Shown piece by piece: positions 26,689 to 60,078 of a stretch of DNA of 64,000 nt. The position numbers were made by a program, and so were the translations under genes. The stretch's first letter is position 1, and each line of letters begins with the position of its first letter. The notes under the pieces were generated by a model. The model was given only the letters and a program-made list of their open reading frames with translations, made no database searches and was not told the origin of the DNA. The stretch covers positions 62,001 through 126,000 of the forward strand of contig RECY01000033.1 in the NCBI GenBank assembly GCA_007693785.1. The letters are read 5' to 3'. Source of the stretch: Phycisphaerales bacterium. Lineage in GTDB: Bacteria > Planctomycetota > Phycisphaerae > Phycisphaerales > UBA1924.

Positions 26689-28668
26689 ATGCAACCGCTC
26701 AACACCACCCCCCTCCCCCCGAAGACGACCCGCGCGCCCCGCCCGCGCCGACGCGCCGCAGCCGCGGTCGCGATCCTCGCCGGGCTCGCCACCCTCGGCA
26801 TGAACGGCTGCGACGCCCCGAGCGGCGCGTCCGCCGCTCTCGAAGAGGCCTCGGCCCTCATGGCCCAGCTCTCCGCCTCCGCCAGCACGCCCGCCTCCCG
26901 CGAGTTCGCCCGCGACAGCGTCTACCAGCGGATCGTCTCCACCTTGGAGCCCGTCCAGGGCCAGGGCACCGAGACCGAGCAGGCCGCCGCCCGTCTCTTG
27001 CTCGCGCAGGCCCGCATCGGGCTCGCCGACCAGCCCTTCGCCGAGGCGTCCGCAGCGCAGGCCCGCGTGCTGAACCGCGTCGCGATTGCGCAGGGCTCGC
27101 TCTCGAGCTACGTCCGCCTCGGCGGGCACGCCGCCGCCCTCGAGCGGTTCGACCCGCGCGACACGCTCGCCGACCTGCGCGAGCGCACCAGCCGCCTCGA
27201 CCGCGAGCGACAGGACACGATCGCCGAGCGCGACGAGCTCGCCGCCGAGATCGCGGGCCTGCGCGAGCAGGCCGAGGCCCGCAACGACGACGCCCGTCGC
27301 CTCCGCGACGCGGTCGCGGAGGTCCGCCTCCGCGCCGCGCGCCAGACCGCGACCGAAGCCGCCGAGATGCTCGCCGGCGTCCGCGGGCAGACGCGCGAAG
27401 CCGACCGCCTCGAGATGGAGGGCGCGGACCTGCTCGCCCAGGCCGACCTGCTCGATCCCGCCCTCAACGAGCTCCGCATCGAGATCGAGCGGATCGAGGC
27501 CCAGGAGGGGGCTTTGGTCCGCGCCGGCGACCGCGTGCAGGCGACCACCGCCCGCGGCACCGAGGACGCCCGCACCGCCCGCGACGAGGCCGACCGCGTC
27601 GCCCGCGACCTCGCAACGCAGATCGACGAGTTGCTCCGCCTCCACGCCGAGGAAGCCGAGCCGAATATCGAAGAGACGGTCTCGGGCCTCGAGCGCGCGG
27701 TGTCGCTCGCCAACCAGGCGGCCCGCGAGCTCCGCTCCGGAGCCCGCGCCACGGCCGCCCAGGCGAGCCAGTCCCTCGCGCACACCCACGCCCAAGCCGC
27801 CTCGACGCTTACCCGCGTCGCGGGGTTCCTGGAGTCGGCCGCGAGCGCCACCCCCGCCCTGCCCCAGGCCGACCGATACCGTCGCACCGCGAGCGAGCTC
27901 CGGGATCGCGCCCGGACCCACCGCGAGGCCGCCGAAGCCGCCGACCAGGCCGCGGAGGAAGGCTTCGTCGCCGCTGGCGTCCGCCGGGGTGCCGACGAGC
28001 CCGCTTTGGCGGGGGACTACGGGGACGAATGGTCCGACTCGGGTGTGGTCGGCACCGAAGACAGCGTCCGCGACTTCCTCGCGGAGCTTGAAGCCGCCAA
28101 CAGCCGCGGCGACATGGATTTCATCGCCGACGCGATCGTTGCCGAAGGCCCGATCATGGAGCGTATGGTCCGAGAGATGCGCCCCTTCCTGGAGGCCTTC
28201 GCTCGACTCAACCAAATTACCGAAGACGCCTTCGGGCGATCCTTCAGCGAGTATCTCGCCTCGCCAGAAGCCGCCCAGAGCGGCTCCATGACCGCCATGA
28301 TGTTCGCCGATGGGGCCATGACCACCCAGATCGTCCCGGACGCCGGAGGCGGTGACGCACAGATCGACGTCTTCGGCGACGAAGCCCTCGTGACCATCCC
28401 CGGCACGCCCGTCCCCACCCGTCTCCGCATGCGCGACGGACGCTGGGCGATCCTCATGAGCGACGACGCCTTTGAAGGCATGGAAGACATGATGCCCGAA
28501 GGCATGCTGGACGCGATCACCGACGCCTACGCACCGATGGCCCGCGCCATGGACGACCTCGCCCAACGCGTCGAACGCGGGCAGCTCGAGAGCGAGCAGG
28601 CCGTCCTGACCGCCTTCGAAGGCGAGATGATGACCCTCATGATGCGTCTCATGGGCGGCGGGGACTAA
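26689..28668 (+). CDS. Large coiled-coil lipoprotein
   Basis: This is a 659-residue protein of unknown function. The N-terminus has a basic stretch, a hydrophobic core (AVAILAGLATLG) and the lipobox MNGC near residue 41, so it is probably a lipoprotein. Residues about 150-430 are an alanine-, arginine- and glutamate-rich coiled coil, and a small C-terminal domain (about 460-600) contains FIADAIVAEGP and ALVTIPGTPVPTRLRMRDG, which recalls an NTF2-like fold. The ATG at 26689 has GAGGACG just upstream. The long frame upstream of it is Pro/Arg-rich shadow. It may act as an envelope spacer. Confidence 0.78.
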   Translation: MQPLNTTPLPPKTTRAPRPRRRAAAAVAILAGLATLGMNGCDAPSGASAALEEASALMAQLSASASTPASREFARDSVYQRIVSTLEPVQGQGTETEQAAARLLLAQARIGLADQPFAEASAAQARVLNRVAIAQGSLSSYVRLGGHAAALERFDPRDTLADLRERTSRLDRERQDTIAERDELAAEIAGLREQAEARNDDARRLRDAVAEVRLRAARQTATEAAEMLAGVRGQTREADRLEMEGADLLAQADLLDPALNELRIEIERIEAQEGALVRAGDRVQATTARGTEDARTARDEADRVARDLATQIDELLRLHAEEAEPNIEETVSGLERAVSLANQAARELRSGARATAAQASQSLAHTHAQAASTLTRVAGFLESAASATPALPQADRYRRTASELRDRARTHREAAEAADQAAEEGFVAAGVRRGADEPALAGDYGDEWSDSGVVGTEDSVRDFLAELEAANSRGDMDFIADAIVAEGPIMERMVREMRPFLEAFARLNQITEDAFGRSFSEYLASPEAAQSGSMTAMMFADGAMTTQIVPDAGGGDAQIDVFGDEALVTIPGTPVPTRLRMRDGRWAILMSDDAFEGMEDMMPEGMLDAITDAYAPMARAMDDLAQRVERGQLESEQAVLTAFEGEMMTLMMRLMGGGD

Positions 28669-51114: not shown

Positions 51115-52812
51115 CTATTTCCCCTCCTTGGGCCCGTCGCCTGGTGAAGGGTCGGGATCGGGCTCGCGCGCGACGACGACCGCGGCCCGGGCGATGACGT
51201 CGCCCCGATGTCGCGCGTTCGGATCGAAGATCAGCATCGCCGCGACGGGCGGGGCGAACCACTTGACGGCGTTCCGCGCCCCGCACGCGACCAGCCCCGG
51301 CGGGCGACCAAACCGACGCCCCTTGCGGTCCACACTCACCACCGCCGAGCCGGCGAGCATCTTCCCGAGGCTGCGCCCCGTGAGGGCCTCCATCGCGGTG
51401 CCGAGCACAAAGCCGACCGCGAGCATGAGCAGGATCGGGCCTTCCCCGCCGGGCTTGCCGAGCCCGCCGAGAAAGACGGTGTCCCCGAGGGTCGAGCCGG
51501 TGGACCAGGCCGCGATCATCCCAGCCGCCACGAGGTCGATCATCGCTCCGAAGACGCGCCGCCCGGGCTCGGCGAGCGCCGCCCAGTCTGGCAGTTCCGC
51601 GACGCCGGACTCCGCCCCCCCTCGCATGATCAGCAGCAGCACCGCCAGCAGCACCGCGACCAGCACCACCATCAGCAGGCGCACGTCCTGCCCGGTGACG
51701 GGCGTCCCGCCCATCAGCAGGCCCTCGTGCATCGGGCGGCCCGTCACCAGCGAGGTCTCCGACGCCAGCAGCCGCCCGCTCCGCCCCTCGCCCGCGTCAA
51801 GACGCACCACCATCGCCCGAGCCGGCCCGCCGACGACCGCCAGGCCGCCCGGCCATCCCACGCCCCGCGCCCCGTCATCGCTCCCGTCCGTCGTGCGCAC
51901 CGGCCCGAGACGGCGCGCGTACCCCTCTCCGATCGCGTGCAGCTCGCCCGAGCCGTCGAGCACGACCCAGCCGCTCGTATCCATCGCGACCGCGTGCTCG
52001 AAAGGGTCAGGCGCTCCGCCCCAGACCGACGCCTCGACGGGATCGGGCGTCCAGTCAATCGTCTCGCCCCGCCCGCGGGTCCCGCGCCAGGCGAGGCGGT
52101 CCCCCTCGCCGGTCTCGGCGAGCAGCCCGATCACGCCGGGCCCGTCGATCAGGCGTAGACGTATCGCGGCCGCGGGATCCAAGCCGCTCGGCCAGGCGTC
52201 CAGCTCGCTCCAAGCCCCGCCCGAGAGCGCGACCAACGCCGGCGGGTCCTCGTTAAGCAGGAGCACCAGCGTCTCCCCGATCGCGCCGGCCCCGAGGACC
52301 GGCGCGCTCCGTCGGAGCTGCGGCAGGACCTCGAACCGCCCCACCGGCTCGTACCCCCAGACCCCCGGCGCGGGCGTCGGCGTCGCGACCAGCGCCCGCA
52401 CCGGTCGGCGAAGCTCGCCCGCGCGACGGACCAGCTCGTCCACGATGAACACGCGGTCGCGACCGCCCGCGATCGCGACCGGGCGCTCCGAGAGGCGACG
52501 GGCGACCCGCCCCGTCCCGCTGACCGCGCCCCCCGCGGCTCGCGGGGGGAGGTGCACGATTGCGGACTCGAGCGTGTCGGTGGATGGCGCAAGCGTCCAG
52601 GCGTGCCACGCGCCGGTCGGGAGCGGATCCCCCGCCGCCGCGGGCCAGGGCCAGATCGGGCGGGCCGACTCGCCCGGCGCGGGCTCGGGCGACGCGCCGG
52701 CGTCGGGCTCGTCCGCGAACGCCGCTCCCGCGAGCAGCCACGCGGAGCACACGCCCAGCCAGGCCGCGATCTTCACGAACCGACACCCTCGGCGACAGGC
52801 GTGAACCGTCAC
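51115..52812 (-). CDS. RDD-family membrane protein with exported N-terminal domain
   Basis: This is a 565-residue protein. A signal peptide (about 1-35, ending GAAFADEP) leads to a large beta-rich domain (about 40-370), possibly propeller-like, with GVWGYEPVGRFEVLPQL and AVAMDTSGWVVLDGSGEL. One membrane segment (about 385-405) precedes a C-terminal RDD domain (GRRVFGAMIDLVAAGMIAAW, TGRSLGKMLAGSAVVSVD). The GTG at 52812 overlaps the stop of the previous gene by 4 bp (GTGA), the reason for this start. RDD proteins have been linked to transport, but the function here is unknown. Confidence 0.82.
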   Translation of the reverse strand: MTVHACRRGCRFVKIAAWLGVCSAWLLAGAAFADEPDAGASPEPAPGESARPIWPWPAAAGDPLPTGAWHAWTLAPSTDTLESAIVHLPPRAAGGAVSGTGRVARRLSERPVAIAGGRDRVFIVDELVRRAGELRRPVRALVATPTPAPGVWGYEPVGRFEVLPQLRRSAPVLGAGAIGETLVLLLNEDPPALVALSGGAWSELDAWPSGLDPAAAIRLRLIDGPGVIGLLAETGEGDRLAWRGTRGRGETIDWTPDPVEASVWGGAPDPFEHAVAMDTSGWVVLDGSGELHAIGEGYARRLGPVRTTDGSDDGARGVGWPGGLAVVGGPARAMVVRLDAGEGRSGRLLASETSLVTGRPMHEGLLMGGTPVTGQDVRLLMVVLVAVLLAVLLLIMRGGAESGVAELPDWAALAEPGRRVFGAMIDLVAAGMIAAWSTGSTLGDTVFLGGLGKPGGEGPILLMLAVGFVLGTAMEALTGRSLGKMLAGSAVVSVDRKGRRFGRPPGLVACGARNAVKWFAPPVAAMLIFDPNARHRGDVIARAAVVVAREPDPDPSPGDGPKEGK

Positions 52813-53831
52813 TCCCCCGCCCCCTCTGAGCGTTCCGGGCCCACGACCGTCACCGCCCACGCCGGGATGCGGTACCGCTCCAGCAGCTCCAGCGGGTCGA
52901 ACGGGAGGTCGGCCAGTGGGCGGATCTCCGGGTCCCAGATGTTCAGACGCACCTGCGCCTCGGCACGGGGCAGGTCGATGACATAGCGGCTCGGGATCAT
53001 CGGGCCCGGGAGCCCGGTCGGGAGCGAGACCGATCGTGTCCCCTGCGTCTCGGCCGTCAGCAGAAGCTCACCGTTGCGGCTCCGGATCGCGGCCCCGAGC
53101 AGGTCGAGCGTCGTCGGGTCGAGGTCCAGAAGCTTCTCGCCCGAGCGGGCCGGCAGACGCACGCGGAGGGCGCGCCCGTCCGCTCTCCACGCGACCGTGC
53201 CGCCCTCGGCGGGCATCGGCGTCACGGGGAGCACCTCCAGCAGGTCCAGCGGGTGAAGCGGGACACCGAACGCCTCGATGACCTCCGGCGAGGCCTCGTC
53301 GTGACGCCCGATGGTGGCTCGCCGGTTGTCGCGGTCGAGCATGTCGAACCACCAGTACAGCTCGTCGTTGGAGCCGAGGTAGAAGAACGTCTCGCCCAGC
53401 TTGCCGAGCTGGAGCGCGAGGCGGCGCGGGCGCTGGAGCTGGAGAAAGCCCTCCCCCTGGTCGCGGGTCTCGCGCCCGCGTGCGGTCTGCTGGACGACCT
53501 GGACGGTGGCGCGGGCCCAAAGGGTTTCCATGGGCTGGACGCGCCGGTTGTAGGCGGCCGCGAGCTCGCTGTAGGAGGGCGGCGGGCCGAGCGTTTCGAT
53601 GTCGATCGGCTTCGGCTGGGAGGTGCACCCGGAGAGCGCGAGCCCGAGGAGCACGCAGAGAACGCCGAGCAAGGTTGTCCGGTGCCCCGGAAACGCGGAG
53701 CCGACCGTCCGCGGTCGGCGGAGCTTTGCCGGGTCGGGCATCGCGGACGATCCGAACCCGGAGAAGCCCCGCGGACGTGGCGTTTCCGGGGCACCGGACA
53801 TCGCGGCCTGGGGCTCGGGGCTGGTTTGCAT
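52809..53831 (-). CDS. Lipoprotein (LolB-like?) carrying an in-frame repeat element
   Basis: This is a 340-residue protein. The hydrophobic core LLGVLCVLLGLALSGC (54-69) ends in a lipobox, so C69 is the acylated residue. The core domain YNRRVQPMETLWARATVQVV, GFLQLQRPRRLALQLGKLG and ELYWWFDM has the plan of LolB-like outer-membrane lipoproteins. I start at the ATG at 53831 (GGAGG, 6 nt upstream, TGATG junction with the previous gene). Residues about 12-51 are encoded by repeat copy A1, inserted in the signal-peptide region. An internal ATG at 53741 inside the element could also start translation. Confidence 0.75.
   Translation of the reverse strand: MQTSPEPQAAMSGAPETPRPRGFSGFGSSAMPDPAKLRRPRTVGSAFPGHRTTLLGVLCVLLGLALSGCTSQPKPIDIETLGPPPSYSELAAAYNRRVQPMETLWARATVQVVQQTARGRETRDQGEGFLQLQRPRRLALQLGKLGETFFYLGSNDELYWWFDMLDRDNRRATIGRHDEASPEVIEAFGVPLHPLDLLEVLPVTPMPAEGGTVAWRADGRALRVRLPARSGEKLLDLDPTTLDLLGAAIRSRNGELLLTAETQGTRSVSLPTGLPGPMIPSRYVIDLPRAEAQVRLNIWDPEIRPLADLPFDPLELLERYRIPAWAVTVVGPERSEGAGE
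53679..53797 (-). repeat. Cloverleaf repeat element A, copy 1 (in frame in a gene)
   Basis: The ends CCGGTGCCCCGGAAAC and GTTTCCGGGGCACCGG are inverted repeats. Inside are three hairpins: a short CGTCCGCGG one, an inner TTC/TCCGGG-CCCGG one and a perfect 8 bp GCCGACCG/CGGTCGGC one. Relative to copies A2-A4 it is inverted. It lies fully within the coding sequence of the lipoprotein gene. Confidence 0.9.
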
Positions 53832-54394
53832 CACGCGCCTCCCTTGCCGTCGTCGTCGTCCAGGTTGAGGATCGCGCCGAGTTCTTCGGTGACTTCGGCG
53901 ATCGCGTGCTCGTCGAGGCCGGGGTCTTCGACTTCGAGCAGGGGCGGGCCCTCGCCGCCGCGTTCCGGCGGGAGCTCGACACCCTTGGGGCGGAGGAGCA
54001 TGGTGCCGCCCTTGCTGCCCTCGAGGCGGAGCAGTCGCTTGCGGATGAGGATGAGGGCGAGGATGAAGCGGAGGGCGCGCCGCTTGGGCTCGGTCGCCTC
54101 GGCGAGCTGCTCGAAGAAGTCCAGCAGTTCGCCGTCGCCGATGAGCAGGCGCTTGGGGGCGTCGCGCTCGGGCATGACGGTCTTCCAGTGCCCGACGAGC
54201 GCGAGGGGGCGCTGGGGGCGGGCGCCGTCCTGCCAGGCGCGGAGGGCGAAATCCATGCGTTCGAGGCGTTGGTCCTCTTCGGCGTGCTCGACGAGGCTCG
54301 CGATGAAGCGGTCGCCGGGGCGGATGGGCTCGCCGGTGGCGGCACAGACGCCGGTGGGTCGGGCGACTTCGAAATTAGCCTGGCCTGCGCTCAT
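53831..54394 (-). CDS. Conserved-looking hypothetical protein with acidic tail
   Basis: This is a 187-residue soluble protein. Residues 10-30 (ARPTGVCAATGEPIRPGD) look like the start of a small zinc- or turn-rich module but only one cysteine is seen. The middle is helical (EPKRRALRFILALILIRKRL), followed by the turn GSKGGTMLLRPKGVELP and an acidic C-terminus. Its stop shares bases with the start of the lipoprotein gene (TGATG). I cannot name a family. Confidence 0.65.
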   Translation of the reverse strand: MSAGQANFEVARPTGVCAATGEPIRPGDRFIASLVEHAEEDQRLERMDFALRAWQDGARPQRPLALVGHWKTVMPERDAPKRLLIGDGELLDFFEQLAEATEPKRRALRFILALILIRKRLLRLEGSKGGTMLLRPKGVELPPERGGEGPPLLEVEDPGLDEHAIAEVTEELGAILNLDDDDGKGGA

Positions 54395-54479
54395 GGGTCG
54401 AGTCTAGCGGTCTCGCGGGACGCGTCGGCCCGCGGGTATGCGCACGTTTGGAGCGATGCCGTCGCGAGCGTCGTCGCCG

Positions 54480-54818
54480 TCAGCAGGAAACCTCAAACAT
54501 CCTGCGGCTCGTCCCGCTCGCGCCCACGCGGAAGGTGCAGCTTTTGGCGCAGAGCGGGCAGATGGCCTCGTAGGCCGACCCGTCCCGGTTCTTGTACACA
54601 CGCCGGTACTGCCCGGCGCATTTGAACCAGACCTGAAGAAAAGGGGCCGCCGGGCCCGCGCCGGGCGGGCCCTGGGCCTGACCTTGGGCCTGGCCTTGGA
54701 TCGGGGCTCCCGCGCGAGCCGGGCGGGGCGGGACGCCGTGGGCGTAAAGCGGCTCGGACCGCTCAAACGTGTCCTTCCGGGGCGAAGGCGGGCCGTGCTG
54801 GGGATCGGGCGGGGGCAT
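54480..54818 (-). CDS. Small protein with a C-terminal zinc-ribbon-like half
   Basis: This is a 112-residue protein. Its first half is Pro/Arg/Gly-rich with a short imperfect repeat (GQAQGQAQG). The second half FLQVWFKCAGQYRRVYKN, ICPLCAKSCTFRVG, ending MFEVSC, has cysteines spaced like half a zinc ribbon (CPLC plus others). Such proteins are often accessory factors, but no function can be given. It is the first minus-strand gene of this run, divergent from lpxI. Confidence 0.6.
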   Translation of the reverse strand: MPPPDPQHGPPSPRKDTFERSEPLYAHGVPPRPARAGAPIQGQAQGQAQGPPGAGPAAPFLQVWFKCAGQYRRVYKNRDGSAYEAICPLCAKSCTFRVGASGTSRRMFEVSC

Positions 54819-55014
54819 CAGGGGTGCTTATCGGTCGGGACAGGGGTGCGGGCCCACTCGCCGATGGTTGGGGATGACGAATCAGTGGTATGCGGCGGGG
54901 TGTTGGACCGCTGCATCTGGTAGATTGGGCGAGATGTGCCGTCTTTGGGTGGTGGACCACCCAGAAGGCGGCGTTCGGCCCTAGACTTGGAGTCGATTGG
55001 GGTCGGGCGTCGAT

Positions 55015-55029
55015 GTTGGAACATCCAAC
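55015..55029. promoter_or_regulatory. Inverted repeat before lpxI
   Basis: GTTGGA-ACA-TCCAAC is a perfect inverted repeat 24 bp before the lpxI start. It overlaps a second one (GATGTT-GG-AACATC). It could be an operator or a small leader hairpin. Confidence 0.3.
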
Positions 55030-55052
55030 GCGTCATCCGGGATCTTGAACTG

Positions 55053-56003
55053 ATGCAAAGCGCGCTGACCATCCTGCCGGACCCACCCCCGCCGCCGACC
55101 GCGATCGGTCTGATCGCGGGGGGCGGGCGTTTACCCCTGCTGATCGCGCGGAATCTTCGCGACATGGGGCACGAGGTGCACGGGCTGGGGCTCGCGAATC
55201 AGTACGAGGGCGAGCTGCCCGGCATGTGCGCGTCCTTCCGCGAGGTCGGGCTGCTGCGGGTCGGGAGCTGGGGACGGATCCTGAACCGCTTGGGCGTGCA
55301 CCACGCGATCATGGTCGGCAAGGTCGACAAAGCGAAGCTGATGCATGACCCGTTCCGGATGTACCGGAACCTGCCGGACTTCCGGACGCTGGTCGGCTGG
55401 TTCCGGCACCTGCGCCACGATCGGCGGAGCCACGCCGTGCTGGCGGCGATCGCCGAGGAGCTCGACCGCGCGGGCGTGAGCCTGATCGATTCGACGGCCC
55501 CGATCCCCGACCAGCTCGCGACGGCGGGCGTGATGACGCGGACGCAGCCGACGCGGGAGCAGCAGGCGGATATCGAGTTTGTGTGGCCGCTGCTGACCGA
55601 GACGCTCCGCCTGGACATCGGGCAGGCGATCGCGGTGCGCGAGCGGGACGTGATCGCGGTGGAGGCGGTCGAGGGGACGGACCGGATGATCCAGCGCGTC
55701 GGCGAGTTGTGCCGGGCGAAGGGCTGGACGCTGTGCAAGGGCGCGCGGGCCGGTCATGACCGTCGGAGCGACGTGCCGACGGTGGGTCTGACGACGATCG
55801 AGCGGATGCGCGAGACGGGCGGGCGCTGCCTGGCGCTGGCGGCGGGGGACGTGATCATGCTCGACCGCGAGGCGATGCTGCACCGGGCCGACGAGTGCGG
55901 GATCGCGGTGGTCGGCGTGCCGCACGCGAGGCCGATGCGTCGCGGCGAGCTGCGCGAGGTCAAGCTGAGCCCGGCCCCGGTGGGGCCCGCGGTCGGCGTG
56001 TGA
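55053..56003 (+). CDS. lpxI: UDP-2,3-diacylglucosamine pyrophosphatase LpxI
   Basis: This 316-residue enzyme (DUF1009 family) hydrolyses UDP-2,3-diacylglucosamine to lipid X in lipid A synthesis; LpxI replaces LpxH in many lineages. The motifs IGLIAGGGRLPLLIARNLRD, HHAIMVGKVDKAKL, and late AVRERDVIAVEAVEGTDRMI, KGARAGHDRRSDVPTVG, with a final ACDVIMLD-like AAGDVIMLDREAM, are those of the family. I start at ATG 55053. The stretch before it in the same frame is arginine-rich. Its stop overlaps the next gene's GTG. Confidence 0.93.
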   Translation: MQSALTILPDPPPPPTAIGLIAGGGRLPLLIARNLRDMGHEVHGLGLANQYEGELPGMCASFREVGLLRVGSWGRILNRLGVHHAIMVGKVDKAKLMHDPFRMYRNLPDFRTLVGWFRHLRHDRRSHAVLAAIAEELDRAGVSLIDSTAPIPDQLATAGVMTRTQPTREQQADIEFVWPLLTETLRLDIGQAIAVRERDVIAVEAVEGTDRMIQRVGELCRAKGWTLCKGARAGHDRRSDVPTVGLTTIERMRETGGRCLALAAGDVIMLDREAMLHRADECGIAVVGVPHARPMRRGELREVKLSPAPVGPAVGV

Positions 56004-56683
56004 CGCGCCCGGGCGTGACGCAGGAACCCAGATCATCTGAAGTGTTTTTGATCCCGGAGCCGCCGGTGTTTGTCGGTCGGGGCGGGGTCAAGCTCTGGCA
56101 CGCGTTGCACGCCTTTGAGATCGACCCACGCGGGCGCACGTGCGCGGACTTCGGCTGCTCGACCGGTGGGTTTACGGATTGCTTCCTGCAACTCGGGGCC
56201 GCACGCGTCCACAGCGTCGACACGGCGTATGGGCAGCTCGCGTGGAAGCTTCGCAACGATCCGCGCGTGGCCGTCCATGAGCGCACGAACGCGCTGCACG
56301 CCGAGGTTCCGGGGGAGGGGCCGACCGATCTGATCGCGATCGATCTGGGCTGGACGCGTCAGCGCCACGCGATCCCGGCGGCTTTGCGCTGGCTCGCGCC
56401 GGGCGGGTCGATCGTGACGCTGGTGAAGCCGCACTATGAGTTGGAGGCGAGCGAACGCGCCATGCTCGGCGCGGGAGGCGTTCTGGAGGCAGGCGATGCG
56501 CTGCGCGTCGTTCGGCGCACGCTCGATGAGATCGAGACGCTGGGCGCGCGCACGGTCGCGGTCTGCAAGAGCCCGGTGCTGGGCGGGGCGGTCGGGGGGA
56601 AGCGGAAGCGCGGGAAAAAGGCGGGCGAGCCGGCGGCCGGGAAGGGGAACGCGGAGTGGCTGGCTTGGGTGCGAGCGGGGTGA
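56000..56683 (+). CDS. TlyA-like rRNA methyltransferase without S4 domain
   Basis: This 227-residue protein matches the FtsJ-type methyltransferase half of TlyA (FVGRGGVKLWHALHAFEID, FGCSTGGFTDCFLQLGAARV, VDTAYGQLAWKLRNDPRVAV, LVKPHYELEA). TlyA modifies 16S and 23S rRNA riboses. The usual N-terminal S4 RNA-binding domain is missing: only about 25 residues precede the first motif. The GTG at 56000 overlaps the lpxI stop (GTGA), so the two genes are coupled. A basic KRKRGKK segment near the end might partly replace the S4 domain. Confidence 0.85.
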   Translation: MTRPGVTQEPRSSEVFLIPEPPVFVGRGGVKLWHALHAFEIDPRGRTCADFGCSTGGFTDCFLQLGAARVHSVDTAYGQLAWKLRNDPRVAVHERTNALHAEVPGEGPTDLIAIDLGWTRQRHAIPAALRWLAPGGSIVTLVKPHYELEASERAMLGAGGVLEAGDALRVVRRTLDEIETLGARTVAVCKSPVLGGAVGGKRKRGKKAGEPAAGKGNAEWLAWVRAG

Positions 56684-56706
56684 GCGGGAGCGACAGAGAG
56701 GGGGAG

Positions 56707-56736
56707 CACTGACCTCTCGGAAGAGGTCAGTGGCAC
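56707..56736 (-). repeat. Hairpin repeat element B, copy 3 (divergent arms)
   Basis: On the minus strand GTGCCACTGACC... forms a hairpin with a CACTGACCTCT/AGAGGTCAGTG stem around TTCCG. The flank GACAGACCCC before it resembles the flank of copy B1 (TCTGTCCCCC). It lies between the convergent methyltransferase and obgE stops and may end both transcripts. Confidence 0.7.
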
Positions 56737-56746
56737 GGGGTCTGTC

Positions 56747-57938
<1,192 letters not shown>

Positions 57939-57960
57939 GAAGGGAGAGGGAGAGGGAGAG

Positions 57961-57985
57961 GACACAGCTCGGAGAGCTGTGCCAC
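57961..57985 (-). repeat. Hairpin repeat element B, copy 1
   Basis: On the minus strand GTGGCACAGCTCTCCGAGCT leads into a 7-8 bp stem (CACAGCT/AGCTGTG) around CTCCG, with TGTGTC after it. It lies 12 nt after the PilZ stop, is followed by a pyrimidine-rich run, and then by element A2. A purine-rich tract on the plus strand (57939-57960) separates the two. Confidence 0.85.
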
Positions 57986-57996
57986 GGGGGACAGAT

Positions 57997-58434
57997 TCAG
58001 GCGACGAGGGTGTAAAGGCCGCTGGTGAGCTGGCGGAGGAGTCGTTCGCGGTCGCCGAGGCGGCAAAATCGGGTGAAGGCGACGGCGTGTCGGACGGGGC
58101 CGGCGACATCGTCGTCGTCGATCCAGACCACGTTGCCGATCGCGAAGACCGCGCGCCCGGGGCCGATGTCGGGCTGGAGCCCGCGACGGCTCGCAAAGCC
58201 CAGCGGCGCGGGCAGGTCAATCCGCAGCGCCACGGCTCGCCCGGGCTCGATCGGGTGGTCCAGCTCGAACTGGATCCCGCCCTCGCTGATGTTGTACGCG
58301 TGCCCCTCGAATCGGAAGCCCTCTTCATCGAGCGGGCGGACGGCGATGCCGGTGTACATCGGCGGCGTCACATACCGCTGGTGGCGGCGACGGTTCGCGG
58401 GGTCCGGCGAAGGGCTCGAGCGGAGGGCGGACAT
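57997..58434 (-). CDS. PilZ-domain protein
   Basis: This is a 145-residue protein with the c-di-GMP-binding PilZ pattern: RRRHQRYVTPPMYTGIAVR (an RxxxR-type N-terminal arm), then NISEGGIQFELDHPIEPG (the [DN]xSxxG motif; here N-I-S-E-G-G). Both motifs are intact, so c-di-GMP binding is likely. I start at ATG 58434 (GGGAG 7 nt upstream). The longer frame from 58719 is repeat A3 read through. PilZ proteins often modulate flagella or envelope synthesis; no target is visible here. Confidence 0.88.
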   Translation of the reverse strand: MSALRSSPSPDPANRRRHQRYVTPPMYTGIAVRPLDEEGFRFEGHAYNISEGGIQFELDHPIEPGRAVALRIDLPAPLGFASRRGLQPDIGPGRAVFAIGNVVWIDDDDVAGPVRHAVAFTRFCRLGDRERLLRQLTSGLYTLVA

Positions 58435-58497
58435 GACAGGCTCCCTAGTCTGCGGTTCGGGCATGCGCGGGGGGACCGGCGTGCCAAAGGCTGTAGA

Positions 58498-58527
58498 AAT
58501 ATCGGCCGGGTGGTGGGATCGCTCCAA
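58498..58527 (-). promoter_or_regulatory. Candidate promoter of the PilZ gene
   Basis: Read on the minus strand, TTGGAG (58527-58522) and GATATT (58503-58498) are separated by 18 bp. The start would be near 58491, about 57 nt before the PilZ ATG. Confidence 0.35.
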
Positions 58528-58584
58528 CCCTTTTGGGCGGGGAGGGGGCCTGGAATCGGTGGTATCCAAGCCATGTCTCAGTGA

Positions 58585-58722
58585 CCGGTGCCCCGGAAAC
58601 GGCCCGTCTGCGGGGCTTTTCCGGGATCGGGGGCGGGACGGCGCGATGGGTCGGTAATGGCGGGGAAACCCGGAAAAACTGCGCCGACCGCGGCGGTCGG
58701 CTCCGTGTTTCCGGGGCACCGG
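58585..58722. repeat. Cloverleaf repeat element A, copy 3
   Basis: The ends CCGGTGCCCCGGAAAC and GTTTCCGGGGCACCGG are perfect. Internal hairpins: CCCG-TCTG-CGGG, TTTTCCGGG/CCCGGAAAAA around a long loop, and GCCGACCG-CGG-CGGTCGGC. It lies directly downstream of the fur stop, before PilZ. Confidence 0.92.
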
Positions 58723-58733
58723 GCGGTAGAGCC

Positions 58734-59159
58734 TTAGCGGGATTCGGTGACGAGTTGGACGGAGACGCGTCCGATCCGCATGCCGGTTCGGCGTTCGAGT
58801 TCGGCGACGAGTTCGTCGCTGAGCTGGTCGAGGAATCGCTCGGAGAGGTCGTCGGGGACGTCCATGATCCGTCCGTCGGGGGTGGTGAGGTGGACGTGCT
58901 CGTGGGTGTCGGCGTCGTAGCGGCAGGGGCCGGAGCCGAGCGTGCTGGGGAGGCGTCGGATGAGCCCGGCGGCTGTGAAGGCGTCAAGCGTGTTGTAGAC
59001 GGTGGCGAGGCTGAGCCCGGCGTCCTGATCGCGGACGCGGTCGTGGAGTTCCTCGGCCGTGGGGTGGGACTTGGTGACTTTGAGGGCGGCGTAGAGCGTC
59101 TCACGCTGGCGGGTGCAGCGGAGGCCGTGGCGGGTGAAGATGTCGCGGTAGGTGGTCAC
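58734..59159 (-). CDS. Fur-family transcription regulator without CxxC zinc motifs
   Basis: This is a 141-residue Fur/PerR-type repressor. The winged helix (about 10-85) has HGLRCTRQRETLYAAL, HPTAEELHDRVR and LSLATVYNTLDAFTAAGLI. The metal region reads DADTHEHVHLTTPDG, with histidines H and H at the usual ligand positions. The CxxC pairs that hold structural zinc in many Fur proteins are absent. The metal cannot be predicted. Palindromes in front of the gene may be its own operator. Confidence 0.9.
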   Translation of the reverse strand: MTTYRDIFTRHGLRCTRQRETLYAALKVTKSHPTAEELHDRVRDQDAGLSLATVYNTLDAFTAAGLIRRLPSTLGSGPCRYDADTHEHVHLTTPDGRIMDVPDDLSERFLDQLSDELVAELERRTGMRIGRVSVQLVTESR

Positions 59160-59193
59160 GCTGAGGAACTATTGGAGGGCGGCGGGGGAGGGA

Positions 59194-59237
59194 CCAGCCA
59201 AGGGCTGGAGATTTGGAATGATTCTAAGCCTTGGCTT
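59194..59237. promoter_or_regulatory. Fur-gene upstream region with palindromes
   Basis: CCAGCC-AAG-GGCTGG (59194-59208), GAATGATTC (59216-59224) and AAGCC-TT-GGCTT (59226-59237) follow each other, and AGCCAAGG/CCTTGGCT pairs the outer two. The region is much less GC-rich than its surroundings. It could hold the promoter and operator of the Fur gene. Confidence 0.35.
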
Positions 59238-59269
59238 CAAAATGGGATAGAGATCGCAACATGGGCAGT

Positions 59270-59405
59270 CCGGTGCCCCGGAAACGGCCCGTCCGCGGGC
59301 CTTTTCCGGGATCCGGGGCGGACGGCGTGATGGCAACGGCTGACAGGCCGACCCGGAAAAACTGCGCCGACCGGGGCGGTCGGCTCCGTGTTTCCGGGGC
59401 ACCGG
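59270..59405. repeat. Cloverleaf repeat element A, copy 4
   Basis: The ends match copy 3 exactly. Internal hairpins: CCCG-TCCG-CGGG, TTTTCCGGG/CCCGGAAAAA and GCCGACCG-GGG-CGGTCGGC. It lies between the Fur-gene promoter region and the GNAT gene and is followed by a purine-rich run (59406-59436) and element B2. Confidence 0.92.
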
Positions 59406-59436
59406 GGGATAGAGAAGATAAGGAGAGTGAGGGGGA

Positions 59437-59461
59437 GACACAGCTCGGAGAGCTGTGCCAC
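59437..59461 (-). repeat. Hairpin repeat element B, copy 2
   Basis: Its 25 bases are identical to those of copy B1 (57961-57985). It begins 19 nt after the GNAT stop (minus strand), again followed by a pyrimidine-rich run and then element A4. Confidence 0.88.
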
Positions 59462-59479
59462 CAAGGGGGCCAGATCCGG

Positions 59480-59971
59480 TCAGGCCGGGCCGTTGGCTCG
59501 GAGGGTCATGCGGTGGTGCGGGATGCCGGCCTCGGTGAAGCCTTCGGGGTCGGTCGCCCAGCCGAGCTTTTCGTAGAAGGGCATCGCCTCGTCGCGGGCG
59601 TGGCAGAAGAGCTCTTCGATGCCGAGCTCGCCGAACGCACGGCTCTCGACGGCCATCACCAGGCGACGCCCGATGCCCTCGCCCTGTCGTTGCAGGTCGA
59701 CGGCCATCTGCATGAGCTTGCCGATGCCCTGGTCCGGATGGTGCGGGAGGAGGCAGGCGCACCCGATGACACGCGGGGCGACGGAGCCGTCGGGCTGGGG
59801 GTGGTTGAAGACGGCGACGAAGTGCTCGAAGGCTTCCTCAAGCCCGGGGTATTCGCGGATAAAGCGGGCGATGTCGTAGCCGATGGGGCCGAGGAGAACC
59901 TGCTCGCGCAGGGCCTGCTCCTGGGCGAGCAGGTCGTGATCTTCGGGCTGGAGTCGGAGGATCTGGATCAT
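59480..59971 (-). CDS. GNAT-family acetyltransferase
   Basis: This is a 163-residue N-acetyltransferase-type protein. The acetyl-CoA site is in QRQGEGIGRRLVMAVESRA (Q/RxxGxG/A pattern), preceded by the strand KLMQMAVDLQ and followed by the last-helix motif HARDEAMPFYEKLGWAT. The substrate is unknown; close relatives by pattern are the ElaA/YjcF-type group. The ATG at 59971 opens it. It is flanked by repeats on the 3' side and by the divergent zinc-ribbon gene on the 5' side. Confidence 0.88.
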   Translation of the reverse strand: MIQILRLQPEDHDLLAQEQALREQVLLGPIGYDIARFIREYPGLEEAFEHFVAVFNHPQPDGSVAPRVIGCACLLPHHPDQGIGKLMQMAVDLQRQGEGIGRRLVMAVESRAFGELGIEELFCHARDEAMPFYEKLGWATDPEGFTEAGIPHHRMTLRANGPA

Positions 59972-60078
59972 CGGTCGTGGTCTCGGGGCGACGGGTCGGA
60001 ATTGGGCGGCGGATACTGTAGCGATTGAGGGCTTCGGGGGTAGCTCGGCGGGGTGTGCCCGTGAATGGAGCGGGCGAA

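Follow-up and report, generated by a model that had tools for sequence, protein, structure and literature searches.

How a palindromic repeat came to lie within the first codons of a lipoprotein gene, and whether it is translated there, are the questions raised by this locus, which belongs to a 64-kb stretch of analysed DNA hereafter called the window. The sequence-only reading had placed this repeat, A1, inside the gene, ahead of the hydrophobic core and the lipobox cysteine Cys69, and this position was confirmed: A1 encodes residues 12/13-51, numbered from ATG 53831, and falls between codon 12 and residue R52. Based on the analyses described below, we consider it probable that A1 is a REPIN moved by a RAYT transposase, inserted in frame in the lipoprotein gene and read through from ATG 53831, so that about 40 residues were added to the n-region of the signal peptide. 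The features concerned are as follows.

52809-53834, minus strand: lipoprotein gene, starting at GTG 53834 or ATG 53831, with lipobox Cys69 counted from the ATG; no Pfam or NCBIfam match
53678-53798, minus strand: REPIN A1, with its core at 53681-53795 and the palindrome extended to TCC...GGA; placed in frame within the lipoprotein gene
53681-53733, plus strand: REP 1 of A1, composed of the tag GGTGC and a long hairpin, with one outer-stem pair broken (A:G)
53757-53795, minus strand: REP 2 of A1, inverted, composed of the tag GGTGC and a short hairpin, with one outer-stem pair broken (A:C)

A1 consists of two inverted REP hairpins carrying the same tag and is a member of a species-specific family. 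Its core, GGTGCC...GGCACC, spans 115 bp and is extended on both sides by TCC/GGA, while most sibling copies have a stronger inner stem in REP 2. A scan of the genome collection with the lipoprotein revealed no close relative, and hence no empty site for comparison, without which the exact ends of A1 cannot be fixed; an in-frame insert being a multiple of three, lengths of 117, 120 or 123 bp fit. Folded as DNA, the 121-nt element has a z of -7.4, and a very stable hairpin was predicted for the RNA of the region (z = -5.6), with a possible effect on lipoprotein expression. No match was returned by an Rfam search of positions 53000-60000.

Whether A1 is translated depends on the start codon in use, for which three further features are relevant.

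53831-54394, minus strand: conserved upstream gene of 187 aa, whose stop overlaps the lipoprotein start (TGATG)
53838-53845, minus strand: Shine-Dalgarno sequence AAGGGAGG, whose GGAGG lies 6 nt before ATG 53831
53739-53741, minus strand: internal ATG within A1, an alternative start without a Shine-Dalgarno sequence

The lipoprotein comprises 341 aa from GTG 53834 and 340 aa from ATG 53831, and neither it nor eight orthologues matched any Pfam family above the cutoff. The lipoprotein loci of 29 relatives, about 30-39% identical, were retrieved for comparison. The 187-aa gene adjoins the lipoprotein gene in 28 of them, the exception (L005) being a match located 37 bases from a contig end, and the lipoprotein start lies on the upstream stop codon (as ATGA, GTGA, TTGA or TGATG) in 22 of these 28, as does ATG 53831 here. 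In the 23 relatives with a scorable lipobox, 43-119 nt (median 68) separate the upstream stop from the lipobox cysteine; the corresponding distance is 203 nt at the present locus and would be about 83 nt once the element of about 120 nt is subtracted. Alignment of the orthologous lipoproteins, which the sequence-only reading had called for, showed that most of them match the A1-bearing protein only from about residue 50 on. Together with the stop-to-cysteine distance and the stop/start overlap, this alignment supports the proposed in-frame insertion in the n-region. The start overlap in relatives, the stop-to-cysteine distance and the Shine-Dalgarno sequence at 53831 thus make the insertion of A1 into the lipoprotein gene itself a well-supported reading of these sequences.

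An alternative view is that A1 disrupted the original start and that translation now begins at ATG 53741, leaving A1 mostly as a 5' leader that contributes some 17-20 residues to a shorter n-region (MPDPAKLRRPRTVGSAFPGH...). The internal ATG, already pointed out before this analysis, does exist in frame and is followed by a basic n-region ahead of the hydrophobic core; it is also where the codon-based gene caller starts the lipoprotein, a caller that by construction penalises inserted non-coding sequence and so tends toward internal starts. Moreover, REPs found at annotated N-termini in other species often prove to be extragenic through misannotation (PMC3733652). Against this view, a clear Shine-Dalgarno sequence precedes 53831 and none precedes 53741, strong sequences of this type being found before 19% of predicted starts in the same genome versus 2.6% of internal ATG/GTG codons; the start overlapping the upstream stop is kept in the 22 relatives mentioned above; and the RNA at 53741 is predicted to lie within the very stable hairpin. 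Initiation within A1 is therefore unlikely, and because only ATG 53831 is preceded by a Shine-Dalgarno sequence, read-through from this codon appears to be the likeliest course of translation.

The family to which A1 belongs was sought across the genome (3.06 Mb, 45 contigs), which by its gene content is probably that of a planctomycete. Allowing up to two mismatches, the terminus GGTGCCCCGGAAAC of A1 occurs 8 times in the window versus 0.68 expected, and within one mismatch 75 genome matches were found versus 3 for the reversed control, a recurrence that is not due to chance. Genome-wide, 50 paired copies were recovered, plus some single or decayed ones, all pairs being built as GGTGC and a hairpin, a spacer, and an inverted hairpin and GCACC. 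Over these 50 copies, 795 of 800 outer-stem pairs are intact and pairs 2-3 change jointly between CC/GG and AT/AT in a compensatory manner, which indicates that pairing is conserved. Stems are asymmetric in most copies (one CCGG, the other CATG), with CCGG on both sides in nine, including all four copies of the window. Besides A1, these are as follows.

57823-57938, no strand assigned: REPIN copy A2, intergenic
58587-58720, no strand assigned: REPIN copy A3, intergenic
59272-59403, no strand assigned: REPIN copy A4, intergenic

Copies A2-A4 (57823-59403) separate consecutive genes beside the obg GTPase gene, one of which, at about 58740-59160, is a probable Fur-family regulator gene, as named by eye. 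A search of 162 further genomes of the same family did not find the GGTGCCCCGGAAAC terminus, indicating that the repeat family spread after divergence. In a 17-mer scan of a 257-Gb collection, 47 scattered stretches with one match each were obtained, a result that chance can account for.

Gene context was examined over 290 kb, comprising the stretches around copies and the window itself. The sole paired copy overlapping a predicted coding region is A1; the other 49 lie outside such regions in DNA of which 83% is coding, an approximate figure obtained with a home-made codon-based caller on stretches chosen around the copies. Two candidates for further in-frame copies that had been suggested by protein searches, C2:66061 and C13:205289, were both intergenic by gene calling and inspection. 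A third, C2:51721, was coding by a naive frame score and was placed between genes by the caller, its upstream frame being unsupported.

This distribution bears on the resemblance to Rickettsia palindromic elements (RPEs) that had been noted at the outset. In forming an open insert that keeps the frame of a protein gene, A1 does recall these elements, and the likeness holds as an analogy. That A1 is a selfish element targeted specifically at reading frames is nevertheless very improbable, as the avoidance of coding DNA by 49 of 50 copies is the opposite of what a coding-targeting element would show, the many in-frame copies inside protein genes that characterise RPEs are reduced to A1 alone, and A1 is open in each of its six frames, which is what GC-rich sequence would be expected to give. 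The tests place A1 instead with RAYT/REPIN repeats.

Openness of the frame is indeed of little weight, given that 77% of frames are open over all 50 copies; since A1 is open in all six, an open frame alone is no evidence of selection, and the earlier proposal that the insertion was tolerated owing to a compatible frame describes an unremarkable property. With 77% of frames open, about one random insertion in four (0.77 x 1/3) would be accommodated in frame. The same proposal had regarded the insertion as recent, for which no support was found: A1 has the most stem damage of all 50 copies, and in no other copy is an outer-stem pair broken in each of the two REPs. Only five broken outer stems occur among the 100 REPs, two of them in A1 (hypergeometric P about 0.002, post hoc). 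Such damage is consistent with greater age of A1, or with its having been freed from functioning as a REP.

One Y1/HUH transposase was identified in the genome (C13:27098-27628); it matches the NCBIfam model REP_Tyr_transpos (NF047646) with 107.7 bits (cutoff 80) as well as the solved TnpArep structure 4er8. Its gene is bracketed by REPIN-family copies at 26942 and 27653 of the same contig. An inverted doublet of tagged REPs, mostly extragenic copies and a RAYT gene flanked by REPs are among the hallmarks of REPINs, and these three were found here. Very probably, the A1 family is moved in trans by this single RAYT. Over the 50 copies, flanking direct repeats indicative of target-site duplication were not in excess. 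The absence of such duplication is expected for a transposase of the IS200/IS605-family type. The inverted ends, extended as TCCGGTGCC...GGCACCGGA, could also suggest that A1 is a MITE derived from a DDE-type insertion sequence and bounded by terminal inverted repeats. This origin is very improbable, as such elements are recognised by the target-site duplication lacking over the 50 copies, the interior is made of two REP hairpins whose tags are conserved, and the RAYT gene is flanked by family copies.

Two observations were made alongside. In the RAYT (L092:2096-2794), EHVH stands in place of the listed [DN]HxH HUH motifs and YCHINP is found at the tyrosine, so that it fits no subclass neatly in the table of PMC6006769. 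A second REP-like family, GTGGCACAGCTCTCCGAGCTGTGTC, with a canonical GTGG foot, is present on the minus strand at 57961-57985 and 59437-59461; within 3 mismatches, it has 60 genome matches versus 0 for the control, yet just one Y1 transposase was found.

As regards the favoured reading, a REPIN translated from ATG 53831, we propose that the RAYT acted in trans on REPIN DNA via a single-stranded intermediate, and that a copy was inserted about 12 codons after the lipoprotein start, its length and frame fitting by chance. Ribosomes would start at the ATG lying on the upstream stop, behind the Shine-Dalgarno sequence, and would then read through A1, giving the lipoprotein precursor about 40 more residues in the n-region. 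These residues would be lost when the signal peptide is removed, the mature lipoprotein should stay unchanged, and such removal would explain the tolerance of A1 as a presumably neutral insertion. A bolder scheme, which we advance tentatively and regard as possible but doubtful, combines a RAYT lineage of this order using GTGC-tagged REPs with the domestication of one REPIN as a long n-region, its hairpins decaying while the frame was kept.

The tag itself deserves comment. The foot reads GTGC in 94 of the 100 REPs and GTGG in 4, and GTGC-footed hairpins were detected at 21 of 29 RAYT loci of relatives (L114-L142), whereas none stood at any of 29 control loci taken from relatives; this non-canonical tag is widespread in the order. 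Canonical REP feet in two published surveys are GTAG/GTGG or CGTC, with mention of CnGA and other atypical feet, including for RAYT-like genes. GTGC is thus a variant of the REP tag rather than the absence of one. Its novelty is provisional: no word starting with GTGC occurs in these two surveys, and a search of the text of the available papers for GTGC, RAYT and REP together as whole words gave no match. Present at the RAYT loci of most relatives examined, this tag is suggestive of a RAYT lineage whose guide recognition has changed.

Among known systems, the closest is the REPIN/RAYT arrangement described in Pseudomonas fluorescens and E. coli (PMC3116915, PMC6006769), with which the present family shares two inverted tagged hairpins, a variable spacer, tens of copies, an almost entirely extragenic distribution and the presence of copies on either side of a RAYT gene; it differs by its GTGC foot, as opposed to GTAG/GTGG, and by having one copy read in frame in a gene. 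With Rickettsia palindromic elements, A1 has in common a palindromic repeat read in frame and tolerated by the host protein. In contrast to RPEs, many of which are located in coding regions, the A1 family avoids coding sequence apart from A1 itself, and its repeats flank a RAYT gene. Intragenic REPs of the GTAG/CGTC type have already been published in Opitutus terrae, Thauera and others (PMC3733652), where REP dimers within ORFs add residues, often N-terminal, although dimers and groups there usually add 20-30 aa versus about 40 for A1. Many of those N-terminal cases were explained as extragenic REPs combined with wrong start calls, an objection that the operon architecture of relatives allows to be tested; at this locus, that architecture and the Shine-Dalgarno sequence speak against misannotation of the N-terminus. 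A1 is therefore a new, well-supported single case of a phenomenon already on record, and a clean illustration of a supposedly extragenic mobile repeat adding residues to a protein.
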